Shown here: positions 4,134 through 7,294 of the stretch, one piece after another
How positions within the stretch are numbered: position 1 is the first letter of the stretch
Layout: each line of letters begins with the position of its first letter
NCBI GenBank assembly: GCA_025699025.1
Contig: JAILWJ010000001.1
Span: forward strand, 292,488-356,487
Direction: 5' to 3'
Origin: Nitrosarchaeum sp.
GTDB taxonomy: Archaea > Thermoproteota > Nitrososphaeria > Nitrososphaerales > Nitrosopumilaceae
DNA length: 64,000 nucleotides
The notes under the pieces: generated by a model
What the model was told of the DNA's origin: nothing
Database searches by the model: none
The model's input: the letters and a program-made list of their open reading frames with translations, nothing else
Program-made: the position numbers and the translations under genes

Positions 4134-4904
4134 ATGATTGATCAACTCTGGCTAATTCCACTGGGCTTTGCAGCTGGCATTTTAGGATCTATGATTGGCC
4201 TTGGTGGCGGAATAATCGTAGTTCCAGTGCTGACGTTTTTTGGATTCCCTCCTACGCTTGCTGCAAGTAATAGCCTATTTGCCGCGTTAAGCAACGCGGT
4301 TGCTTCTACTTTGTCTTACTCTAGACAAAAACGCGTGGATTTTTCACTAGGCCTGAAATTGGGGTTGTTGTGCATTCCGGGCACTGTTTTGGGAGCATAC
4401 GTTTCCAGTGATGTGACTCCTGGAATTTTTAAAATGCTGTTTGGTCTTGTCTTGATTTCTTCTGCGGTTTACATTTTTTTGAGAAAAAAAATTGAAACCA
4501 AACAAAAAGTGATGACAAACCAAATAATGATTTTTGTAATCGGTGCTAGCTTTTTTGCAGGAATCATCTCTTCTTTTTTTGGAATAGGTGGCGGAATTAT
4601 TTTCGTACCTTTGATGGTAGTAGGAATTGGCATGACTATGAAAAAGGCTGCTCCTACATCCCAATTCATTTTGTTGTTTGCATCACTGTCTGGCGTAATA
4701 GTCCATAGCATGCTTGGGCACCCTGATTTCCTTCAATCCGGATTGCTGGCAAGCGGATCTTTTGTTGGCGGATTGGTTGGAGCAAGACTGTCCCTTGACA
4801 TCAGAGAGCGTTACTTGCAAATTTTAGTGTCTGTCATAATCATAGCTGGCGCGGCCAAACTCTTTTTTGACTCCGTCGCAAATGGGATGTTTGCCGGCGG
4901 GTAA
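4134..4904 (+). CDS. TauE/SafE-family membrane transporter
   Basis: 256 residues, almost entirely hydrophobic, with about eight membrane helices in two related halves. Each half carries the family signature: GLGGGIIVVPVLTFFG near residue 23 and GIGGGIIFVPLMVVG near residue 150. TauE/SafE proteins export sulfite, sulfoacetate or other small organic anions; the substrate here cannot be inferred from sequence. A TATA-like GATTATATAC at 4098-4107 lies about 32 bases before the ATG. A run of glycines ends the protein (MFAGG). Neighbours give no substrate hint. Confidence 0.9.
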   Translation: MIDQLWLIPLGFAAGILGSMIGLGGGIIVVPVLTFFGFPPTLAASNSLFAALSNAVASTLSYSRQKRVDFSLGLKLGLLCIPGTVLGAYVSSDVTPGIFKMLFGLVLISSAVYIFLRKKIETKQKVMTNQIMIFVIGASFFAGIISSFFGIGGGIIFVPLMVVGIGMTMKKAAPTSQFILLFASLSGVIVHSMLGHPDFLQSGLLASGSFVGGLVGARLSLDIRERYLQILVSVIIIAGAAKLFFDSVANGMFAGG

Positions 4905-4971: not shown

Positions 4972-5424
4972 TTATCTTGGAGGTTCTTTTTTGATTCTGT
5001 ACAGATTTTTTTTCGAAATTACTATTGACTCGCCTTCTTGATTTGTCCCTTCATAGTCGATGGCAATCTTCCCGTATTCCTCGTCAATTTCCTCCTTTCC
5101 TGAAACTGTAAACCTTAACTTCAACACCTCGTCTGTATGCAGCGGTCTTAGAAACCGCGTGTTTCTGTTTTTCCACGCTGCATCCCCGTCTGTTCCGATG
5201 AGTATTATGTGGTTTCCATAAATCTGACTCAGTCTGGTAAACTCTCCTTCCATTCTTGACAGTATTGCTCTGCCAGAAACAATCTTCTGTTTGTCTTTTC
5301 CCCTGTTTTCTAAAAATGCATTTTTTACCCTGGAAAAATTCAGATACTCGTCTAATTCTTTGTCTGAAATACTGCACGTTGAAAAAAATTGATCTCCTAC
5401 TCTTAGCTCGGAAAATTTTTTCAT
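4972..5424 (-). CDS. MaoC-like hot-dog fold protein lacking the usual catalytic pair
   Basis: 150 residues with the overall pattern of MaoC/R-hydratase proteins: FSELRVGDQF at the start, the central helix segment SGRAILSRMEGEFTRL, and late strands (FLRPLHTDEVLKLRFTVSG) where the family has its 'P-x-x-x-G-D-x-L' motif. The region that should hold the catalytic Asp and His (D-x-N-P-x-H) reads FSRVKNAFLE, so the normal hydratase dyad seems absent. It starts 2 bases after the stop of the tandem-SDR gene and is surely co-transcribed with it. It may bind an acyl-CoA rather than hydrate it, or act as a partner subunit. Confidence 0.6.
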   Translation of the reverse strand: MKKFSELRVGDQFFSTCSISDKELDEYLNFSRVKNAFLENRGKDKQKIVSGRAILSRMEGEFTRLSQIYGNHIILIGTDGDAAWKNRNTRFLRPLHTDEVLKLRFTVSGKEEIDEEYGKIAIDYEGTNQEGESIVISKKNLYRIKKEPPR

Positions 5425-5426
5425 TC

Positions 5427-7199
5427 CTATCTTAATTCATCAACACAAAATGTAACTTCTGATGAGGAAGTTGCATTTTCTGAAACAAGAAAATTAAATG
5501 CTTGGGCGATTCTCTCGTTGCTTGATTCTGTTCCTGCAACCGAGCCCGGGAAAATCGTGAATATTCTGATGTTTGAATTTAGAACATCGCTTAATTCTTG
5601 GTTGACAGTTGTAGTAAACGGTCTCAGTGCGCCTCTAAACACCTCGACTTGGGCTCTTTGCGTGCCTGTAACCTTTTTGCCTGATGGTAAATCCGGACCT
5701 ATGATCATCATTGCCCCCTTTGCCCCTTTGTACAGTCTGGGGTCTTTACTTCCGCCTGGGACAAACTGCTCCAGTGTTCTTTGAGCTACGGTAGCCGGTG
5801 TGATGATGAACTTTTCAACCAACTCTTCCCATTCTGCCCTTGACAATTCTACTATTTTTGAAACATCGGGCATCTTTCCTGTTATGTGAATTACGCCCAA
5901 GATATCTCCAATGTTTGTCTTGGCAGTGTTTAGCCACCTCTGCACTTCTTCTGGATTCCTTATGTTGATTGTGTGGGAATGAAACTTGCTGCTGATGTAC
6001 TCTTGCAGTTCCTTTGGTGTTGATTCTGAAATAAAGCATGCAACCTTGCCGCCGTTTTTCTCAACATGTTTGGCTAGAAATTCGACTCTTTCTGCATCTG
6101 TCTTGTCTGTGGCATCAATTGTGAACACAACTGCTTTTCCAGCAAAGTCTGGCTGATGGACGCCAGGCGTCATCGTTCCTATGTGGGGCTTGACCGGATA
6201 AAATACCCTGTCTCCTGGGATGACCTTGCCGTTGATGATTTTTGCAATTTCATCATCACACAAATTCAAAACAGATTCAGCAACCTGTGTCTGTGAAAGA
6301 AACTCTTGGTTTGCAATCATATGTGATGTGTTGTTCTGAACCTTTTCTGCTATGTTTTGAATTTTGTTTAATAGATTTGTAAATGTCTGAGTTACTTTTT
6401 GAACATCTCTTCTGCCCGCCAACTTTTTTGCAGCAGCCAAAATTCCATCTTTTACTGTGTTGTCATCTTCGCCCAATAACGGCAATAGTTCCTTGTTTGC
6501 AGCATCCACCTCTTCTGGTGAGAGATCTTCAAACCCTCCGACTCTCATAAACTCGGCTGCAGCTTTTGGGTATACTGTTTTGTAAATCCTATCTGAATGC
6601 ACTGGTCCTGGATTTGTTGCAATGGATATTATTCCCTTGTCTGTCAGCTCCCATGACATTAATTCTGCCAGTCTGTTTTTTGCTCCCTGGGCTGCAGTGT
6701 ATGGACTTCTAAACCTATACGGCCTTTGCTCCAGTGGTCTTTCTTCGGTAAAGAATGTGGAGATTGTAATTATCTTTCCTCCCGCTTTCATTATTTTGAG
6801 AGCTTGAACTGAACCCCAAAACGTGCCTGTAAGGTGAATTCCAACCGTACTCTTAAACTCATCAAGGGGAGCATTAGCAAAACATGTGACAGGTCCTGAG
6901 ACTCCTGCATTATTAATCACATAATCTACAGTGGTGTTTTCGCCTTTTAGCTCATTGAACATTTCTGTCATTCCTGCTTCATCACTCACGTCGACACCTG
7001 AGAAAATTTTTACTGATGCCCCACTGTTGACGCTGGAAATAATTTCATTTAGCATTTTGGCAGTCTCTTCTAGCGGCTCACGTCTTCTGCCAAGAATTAT
7101 CACGCTTGCGCCGTTTTCAACAAATTTTTTGGCTATTGCTTGACCGATTCCAGTTCCACTTCCTGTAACAAGGGCAACCTTATTTTGAAATTTTAACAT
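5427..7199 (-). CDS. Tandem SDR protein resembling half of bacterial malonyl-CoA reductase
   Basis: 590 residues from the ATG at 7199, which has the purine-rich GGAAGG some 7 bases upstream; a TTG five codons earlier is less likely. Residues 1-210 form an SDR Rossmann domain: cofactor loop TGSGTGIG (12-19), NNAG (96-99), S147, Y167 and a PGPVHSDRI segment. Residue +4 from the tyrosine is Gln171, not the usual Lys; a Lys sits at 174. Residues about 345-590 look like a second, cofactor-less SDR domain. From memory the layout, including SRAEWEELVEKFI and the PGPV-x-x-D-R motif, matches the halves of Chloroflexus malonyl-CoA reductase (Mcr). Reduction of malonyl-CoA or malonic semialdehyde in the 3HP/4HB cycle is an inference. 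It is followed by a MaoC-like gene. Confidence 0.7.
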   Translation of the reverse strand: MLKFQNKVALVTGSGTGIGQAIAKKFVENGASVIILGRRREPLEETAKMLNEIISSVNSGASVKIFSGVDVSDEAGMTEMFNELKGENTTVDYVINNAGVSGPVTCFANAPLDEFKSTVGIHLTGTFWGSVQALKIMKAGGKIITISTFFTEERPLEQRPYRFRSPYTAAQGAKNRLAELMSWELTDKGIISIATNPGPVHSDRIYKTVYPKAAAEFMRVGGFEDLSPEEVDAANKELLPLLGEDDNTVKDGILAAAKKLAGRRDVQKVTQTFTNLLNKIQNIAEKVQNNTSHMIANQEFLSQTQVAESVLNLCDDEIAKIINGKVIPGDRVFYPVKPHIGTMTPGVHQPDFAGKAVVFTIDATDKTDAERVEFLAKHVEKNGGKVACFISESTPKELQEYISSKFHSHTINIRNPEEVQRWLNTAKTNIGDILGVIHITGKMPDVSKIVELSRAEWEELVEKFIITPATVAQRTLEQFVPGGSKDPRLYKGAKGAMMIIGPDLPSGKKVTGTQRAQVEVFRGALRPFTTTVNQELSDVLNSNIRIFTIFPGSVAGTESSNERIAQAFNFLVSENATSSSEVTFCVDELR

Positions 7200-7294
7200 G
7201 GACAAACCTTCCAATCATTTGTAATATTTAATTGGATTGATCCTTGAAGATATTTCTTGATATCTTTATTTGTGGGTAGGATTCACTATTTTTT

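Follow-up and report, generated by a model that had tools for sequence, protein, structure and literature searches.

A tandem short-chain dehydrogenase gene in an ammonia-oxidizing archaeon

The stretch of DNA analysed here (the window; 64,000 nucleotides of contig JAILWJ010000001.1 from a Nitrosarchaeum sp.) encodes a protein of 590 residues, P0001, on the minus strand at positions 5427–7199. Its open reading frame, PDB matches, structural model and profile alignment characterize it as a tandem short-chain dehydrogenase/reductase (SDR) that resembles one half of malonyl-CoA reductase (Mcr), and suggest a candidate acyl-CoA reductase of the ammonia-oxidizing archaea (AOA). The genome is that of an ammonia-oxidizing archaeon, with AmoA present in its assembly, and the closest named loci are those of Nitrosopumilus isolates. 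A preliminary description, made from the sequence alone, had placed a gene for 590 residues at this position; the gene is real, and we add the strand, which that description lacked. Across the same interval the plus strand has no long open reading frame and is non-coding. Translation may start at the ATG at 7199 or, possibly, at a TTG at 7214; a TATA-like AT-rich box, read by eye 24–33 bases upstream of the ATG (ATTAAATATT; 7223–7232, minus strand), fits a leaderless archaeal transcript beginning at that ATG.

P0001 comprises three parts, all encoded on the minus strand. Domain 1 (residues 1–222; 6534–7199) is a catalytic-type, NADP(H)-binding SDR with a TGSGTGIG cofactor loop (residues 12–19), GRR after the second β-strand and NNAG (residues 96–99). 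Within it lie the active-site segment (residues 157–177, EQRPYRFRSPYTAAQGAKNRL; 6669–6731), which holds an Mcr-type Y161-xx-R164-xx-Y167 motif followed by Gln171 and Lys174, and a segment (residues 196–210, NPGPVHSDRIYKTVY; 6570–6614) that includes Arg204, which aligns with a CoA-binding Arg in the C-terminal half of Mcr (Mcr-C). A helical linker (residues 223–340; 6180–6533) occupies, according to the model and the alignment, the place where Mcr-C has an extra domain, and Domain 2 (residues 350–590; 5430–6152) is a degenerate Rossmann/SDR-like unit that has no glycine-rich cofactor loop and gives only very weak SDR matches. Pfam recognizes a single good SDR domain in P0001 (adh_short, residues 7–203), and no NCBIfam family scores above its cut-off. 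An AlphaFold2 model built from 26 sequences (mean pLDDT 86, pTM 0.88) has two Rossmann-like domains plus the helical linker, with low confidence in the active-site loop at 150–158. The model and the domain searches thus bear out the architecture that had been proposed from the sequence, and the motifs listed with it (TGSGTGIG, NNAG, Tyr167, NPGPVHSDRI at 196–205 and SRAEWEELVEKFI) are all present in P0001.

Relationship to malonyl-CoA reductase

Mcr is the closest solved relative of P0001, and the two proteins are kin. In a sequence search of the PDB, the top eleven matches to P0001 were all Mcr chains or domains (E = 1e-36, compared with 4e-17 at best for other SDRs), and a profile of 24 orthologues searched against the same database placed two full-length Mcr proteins first. 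Comparison of the model with 350,542 PDB chains using Foldseek filled ranks 1–25 with Mcr chains, either single halves or the complete enzyme (best E = 1.9e-25, TM score 0.72 over the tandem), followed by the two-domain peroxisomal enzyme MFE-2 (2et6; E = 1e-16, TM score 0.54, root-mean-square deviation 17.6) and by single SDRs from E = 1e-12. Because the root-mean-square deviation between the model and Mcr is 8–9 Å, the relative orientation of the domains either differs or is uncertain. Profile alignment with hhalign used the two Chloroflexus Mcr halves, both identical to PDB 8hjw: the match to Mcr-C covers both domains (E = 1.1e-20, 498 columns), whereas that to the N-terminal half, Mcr-N, is weaker and shorter (E = 3.7e-18, 364 columns).

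Phylogenetic analysis of Domain 1 points the same way. In a tree with 40 archaeal SDRs, the AOA proteins group with both Mcr halves (support 99/93); the grouping retains support of 92/89 when bacterial SDRs are added, and it persists when either Mcr half is omitted. Given the long branches and the few Mcr sequences, we regard this as evidence of moderate strength. Within the group the two halves of Mcr pair with each other (97/83, 96/78), an order that would place the departure of the AOA lineage before the duplication that produced Mcr-N and Mcr-C; with long branches and only two Mcr sequences, little weight should be put on it. The likeness to Mcr halves put forward in the preliminary description is therefore upheld by all four lines of comparison (sequence, profile, structure search and tree); in sequence, fold and tree alike it is Mcr, and not some other SDR group, that lies closest. 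A collection of plasmids searched by tblastn with P0001 yielded single-domain SDR matches only, with at most 55% of the query covered; it contained no match to Chloroflexus Mcr-C at 1e-20.

Among known systems, Mcr-C of Chloroflexus aurantiacus and Roseiflexus castenholzii thus provides the best match in fold, profile and sequence. It shares with P0001 the succession of active SDR, helical insert and degenerate SDR, as well as the Ser/Thr-Tyr pair and the Y-xx-R-xx-Y and PGPVxxxR motifs. P0001 differs in being a free-standing archaeal protein, unfused to an Mcr-N, with a shorter linker (590 versus about 670 residues). Mcr-N has the same tandem-SDR plan, a similar length, Thr in its catalytic triad and Y-xx-R-xx-Y, but it retains the YxxxK motif. 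MFE-2, a tandem (3R)-hydroxyacyl-CoA dehydrogenase, likewise carries two SDR domains per chain and has the HLxGTF motif in common with P0001, but it is clearly the worse structural match, and no Y-xx-R-xx-Y occurs in the aligned part.

Active-site residues

Residues that matter in Roseiflexus Mcr have been identified in both halves (PMC10470521): Ser731, Tyr743, Arg746, Tyr749, Lys753, Arg785 and Arg799 in Mcr-C, and Thr165, Tyr172, Arg175, Tyr178 and Lys182 in Mcr-N. The first six positions of the Mcr-C set align, in order, with Thr148, Tyr161, Arg164, Tyr167, Gln171 and Arg204 of P0001, and Arg204 corresponds to the CoA-binding Arg of Mcr-C (Arg773 in Chloroflexus, Arg785 in Roseiflexus). 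All six of these residues, together with Lys174, are invariant in 24 aligned orthologues from four families, and the motif EQRPYRFRxPYTxxQGxKNRL is nearly unchanged among full-length orthologues (46–100% identity, four families); judged from these alignments, the conservation is more than chance. None of 42 ordinary SDRs from the same archaeal group contains the Y-xx-R-xx-Y substrate motif of Mcr.

Distribution among ammonia-oxidizing archaea

The gene is universal in AOA. Across 200 genomes of the order with completeness of at least 80%, it was found in 137 and AmoA in 137, with both present in 135; two draft genomes have only the one and two have only the other. The preliminary description had named absence from most AOA genomes as grounds for refutation, and the 135 genomes shared with AmoA show no such absence. 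Among 299 genomes sampled from the phylum, the gene occurs in 58, all from AOA families, and no orthologue was found in the non-AOA Thermoproteota of that sample. This distribution accords with a function in the core metabolism of AOA, and we propose that all AOA inherited the gene from their common ancestor.

The 4-hydroxybutyryl-CoA dehydratase family, PF03241, proved a poor marker of the carbon-fixation cycle, as it also occurs in non-AOA families. Its members were seen in families f9, f10 and f12, which belong to the order but are non-ammonia-oxidizing and have neither AmoA nor the tandem SDR.

Gene surroundings

Two bases downstream of the SDR gene, on the same strand, lies a gene for a 150-residue protein with a MaoC-like hot-dog fold (4972–5424, minus strand; best match 1q6w, E = 1.9e-7), in which the hydratase motif DxNPxH is not recognizable by eye. 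It adjoins the SDR gene in most Nitrosopumilaceae, where the two are probably co-transcribed. The hot-dog gene is absent from the closed AOA genomes G005, G009, G026 and G037, and we therefore reject its product as an obligate partner. Further along, a TauE/SafE-family permease gene (4134–4904, plus strand) is convergent with the SDR gene, an arrangement seen in most AOA; it recurs within each of the four AOA families, at least in some members, although the remaining synteny is broken.

Candidate function in carbon fixation

AOA fix carbon by the 3-hydroxypropionate/4-hydroxybutyrate (HP/HB) cycle, in which malonyl-CoA reductase catalyses the first reduction after the carboxylase; this activity is known from cell extracts. 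In Nitrosopumilus maritimus the genes for malonyl-CoA, acryloyl-CoA and succinyl-CoA reductase were listed as unassigned, with the activities measured (PMC6038301, 2018), and malonyl-CoA reductase was so listed again two years later (PMC6964070, 2020), in agreement with the earlier statement that this enzyme is not firmly assigned in AOA. The enzymes leading from malonyl-CoA to propionyl-CoA in the two archaeal variants of the cycle are not homologous (PMC7845616, 2021), and malonyl-CoA reductase does not figure among the markers compiled for the thaumarchaeal variant (PMC12894919, 2026). Our literature search found no paper joining malonyl-CoA reductase, short-chain dehydrogenases and Thaumarchaeota; subscription papers and preprints lay outside that search, and a published assignment is possible.

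Judged from its similarity to Mcr and its presence throughout AOA, P0001 is the best available candidate for the missing enzyme: it most likely works like Mcr-C, and we consider it somewhat probable that this half-size, Mcr-like tandem SDR performs malonyl-CoA reduction in AOA. The preliminary description had named two steps, the reductions of malonyl-CoA and of malonic semialdehyde. The former fits better: the match to Mcr-C is the stronger and longer one, and for the latter a different enzyme has already been characterized in N. maritimus (Otte et al. 2015, as cited in PMC7845616).

Several observations weigh against this assignment. The catalytic Lys of YxxxK is replaced by Gln171 in all orthologues, with an invariant Lys at Tyr+7, as had been remarked from the sequence and is confirmed here, and a Lys-to-Ala mutant at the matching position of Roseiflexus Mcr-C is dead (PMC10470521). 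P0001 is not filed as an Mcr proper because this defining residue is missing. The usual Asn of the SDR tetrad is replaced by His122, a difference kept as strictly as the shared residues, and overall identity to Mcr is about 20–25%. In a weak alignment, Asp538 falls at the place of Roseiflexus Arg1164 (in the fourth SDR domain), which would then have no Arg counterpart, and Lys212 and Arg219 lie near the place of Arg799 (in the extra domain), whose exact equivalent is ambiguous. No gene of the HP/HB cycle is found among the neighbours of the SDR gene. The AOA-wide pattern would be equally expected of any gene that the ancestor of AOA had acquired in a single event, and at least two medium-chain dehydrogenase/reductase (MDR) enzymes share it. 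Codon usage gives no mark of high expression (rank 52 of the 62 open reading frames in the window); as a proxy for expression, however, it proved uninformative, with 4-hydroxybutyryl-CoA dehydratase scoring about equally.

Alternative functions

The alternative that survives best, although we consider it unlikely, is an alcohol-dehydrogenase-type SDR that acts on a semialdehyde or on a 3-oxo- or 3-hydroxyacyl-CoA, in the manner of Mcr-N or MFE-2, and is paired with the MaoC-like protein as hydratase. Thr148 is shared with Mcr-N, HLxGTF with MFE-2, and among two-domain structures 2et6 ranks next after Mcr; the adjacency of the hot-dog gene in most Nitrosopumilaceae would also accord with such a pairing. 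That neighbour is dispensable, however, and lacks a recognizable DxNPxH, the profile match to Mcr-N is inferior to that to Mcr-C, and enzymes acting on malonic semialdehyde and 3-hydroxybutyryl-CoA have already been characterized in N. maritimus (PMC7845616, PMC8287830).

The case for P0001 as the malonyl-CoA reductase also draws on a survey of other acyl-CoA-reductase families. The aldehyde dehydrogenase (ALDH) superfamily, PF00171, was sought in 110 genomes of the window's family with completeness of at least 95% and is absent from 12 of them (G005, G007, G009, G014, G019, G022, G151, G209, G212, G214, G462 and G471), four of which are single-contig (G005, G009, G022 and G151). The tandem SDR is known in 10 of the 12, the other two lying outside the SDR search. 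Since there are AOA without any ALDH match, succinyl-CoA reduction cannot depend on an ALDH in all members of this group. The malonyl/succinyl-CoA reductase of Sulfolobales belongs to an aspartate-semialdehyde-dehydrogenase-like family (PF01118); it shares with P0001 the proposed reaction and the place in the HP/HB cycle, but P0001, an SDR, is of an unrelated fold family. AOA and non-AOA alike have two PF01118 members above the cut-off, presumably Asd and ArgC/LysY, and no extra paralogue of Sulfolobales type was found in AOA. Because the ALDH-free AOA have neither an ALDH nor an extra PF01118 protein, we can point there to no member of a known acyl-CoA-reductase family other than the tandem SDR, a protein of some unknown family being possible, and this SDR may therefore serve both malonyl- and succinyl-CoA.

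From the same evidence one could argue that P0001 reduces succinyl-CoA only and that malonyl-CoA reductase is another protein, which we regard as improbable. Succinyl-CoA reductase is also without an assigned gene (PMC6038301), one in ten genomes of the family offers no ALDH candidate, and the two substrates differ by a single CH2. The closest relatives of P0001, however, act on malonyl-CoA, and the present data do not separate the two substrates.

Tyr-x6-Lys spacing is a property of FabI/InhA-type enoyl reductases. This 'divergent' SDR spacing is found in P0001 (Tyr167 and Lys174), and an enoyl-CoA role was considered for that reason: the protein would then catalyse the acryloyl-CoA (enoyl-thioester) reduction in the cycle, with its Lys moved to Tyr+7. 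The invariance of the spacing, the MaoC-fold neighbour and the acryloyl-CoA step's own want of an assigned gene (PMC6038301) would agree with such a role. It is nevertheless quite improbable. FabI and InhA are not among the best matches of P0001 in the PDB sequence, profile or Foldseek searches; Y-xx-R-xx-Y has the spacing of Mcr and supplies carboxylate-binding residues for which acryloyl-CoA has no need; and several closed AOA genomes do without the MaoC-like gene. Furthermore, an AOA-universal MDR enzyme encoded elsewhere in the window's genome (L147; C3:411470–411865), with 56–90% identity between AOA families and at best 37% to non-AOA proteins, matches two family models, each below its curated cut-off: that of crotonyl-CoA carboxylase/reductase at E = 2e-53 and that of the Thermoprotei acryloyl-CoA reductase at E = 4e-45. 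By these matches L147 appears the better candidate for acryloyl-CoA reductase of the AOA cycle than the tandem SDR. A second enzyme of this kind, MDR/alcohol-dehydrogenase-like (L146; C1:758144–758527 of the same genome, outside the window), is also AOA-universal and AOA-specific, with 56–68% identity across AOA families.

Finally, P0001 might be SDR-like but non-catalytic or repurposed, having only once filled such a role. The loss of the catalytic Lys and usual Asn would accord with this, but it is very improbable: in four families the cofactor loop shows no variation, nor do the Thr, the Tyr, the two Arg and dozens of further residues in the active-site region, a pattern that indicates an active site under retention.

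Proposed mechanism and implications

For malonyl-CoA reduction by P0001, we infer the substrate, cofactor, course of catalysis and role of Lys174 as follows. NADPH would be bound in Domain 1, which together with the helical linker and the degenerate Domain 2 would enclose the CoA ester; Arg204 would contact the CoA part, and Arg164 and Tyr161 the malonyl group at its free carboxylate. Hydride would then pass to the thioester carbonyl, with Thr148 and Tyr167 stabilizing the oxyanion, and departure of CoA would leave malonic semialdehyde, to be converted to 3-hydroxypropionate by the separate malonic semialdehyde reductase of AOA. Lys174, one helix turn beyond the usual position, may replace the Tyr+4 Lys in ribose binding and proton relay. 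ALDH-free AOA may use this enzyme for succinyl-CoA reduction as well, just as a single enzyme serves both substrates in Sulfolobales. The fullest version of this proposal, in which P0001 is the malonyl-CoA reductase of AOA and also their succinyl-CoA reductase where ALDH is lacking, descends from the tandem-SDR unit that preceded the Mcr duplication and works with a Tyr-x6-Lys site, is doubtful as a whole.

A single, universal and cloneable candidate makes the question of the AOA malonyl-CoA reductase directly testable. If the assignment is true, the gene could be used to mark autotrophic AOA, and the archaeal cycle would have been partly assembled from a protein family so far known from bacterial 3-hydroxypropionate metabolism.
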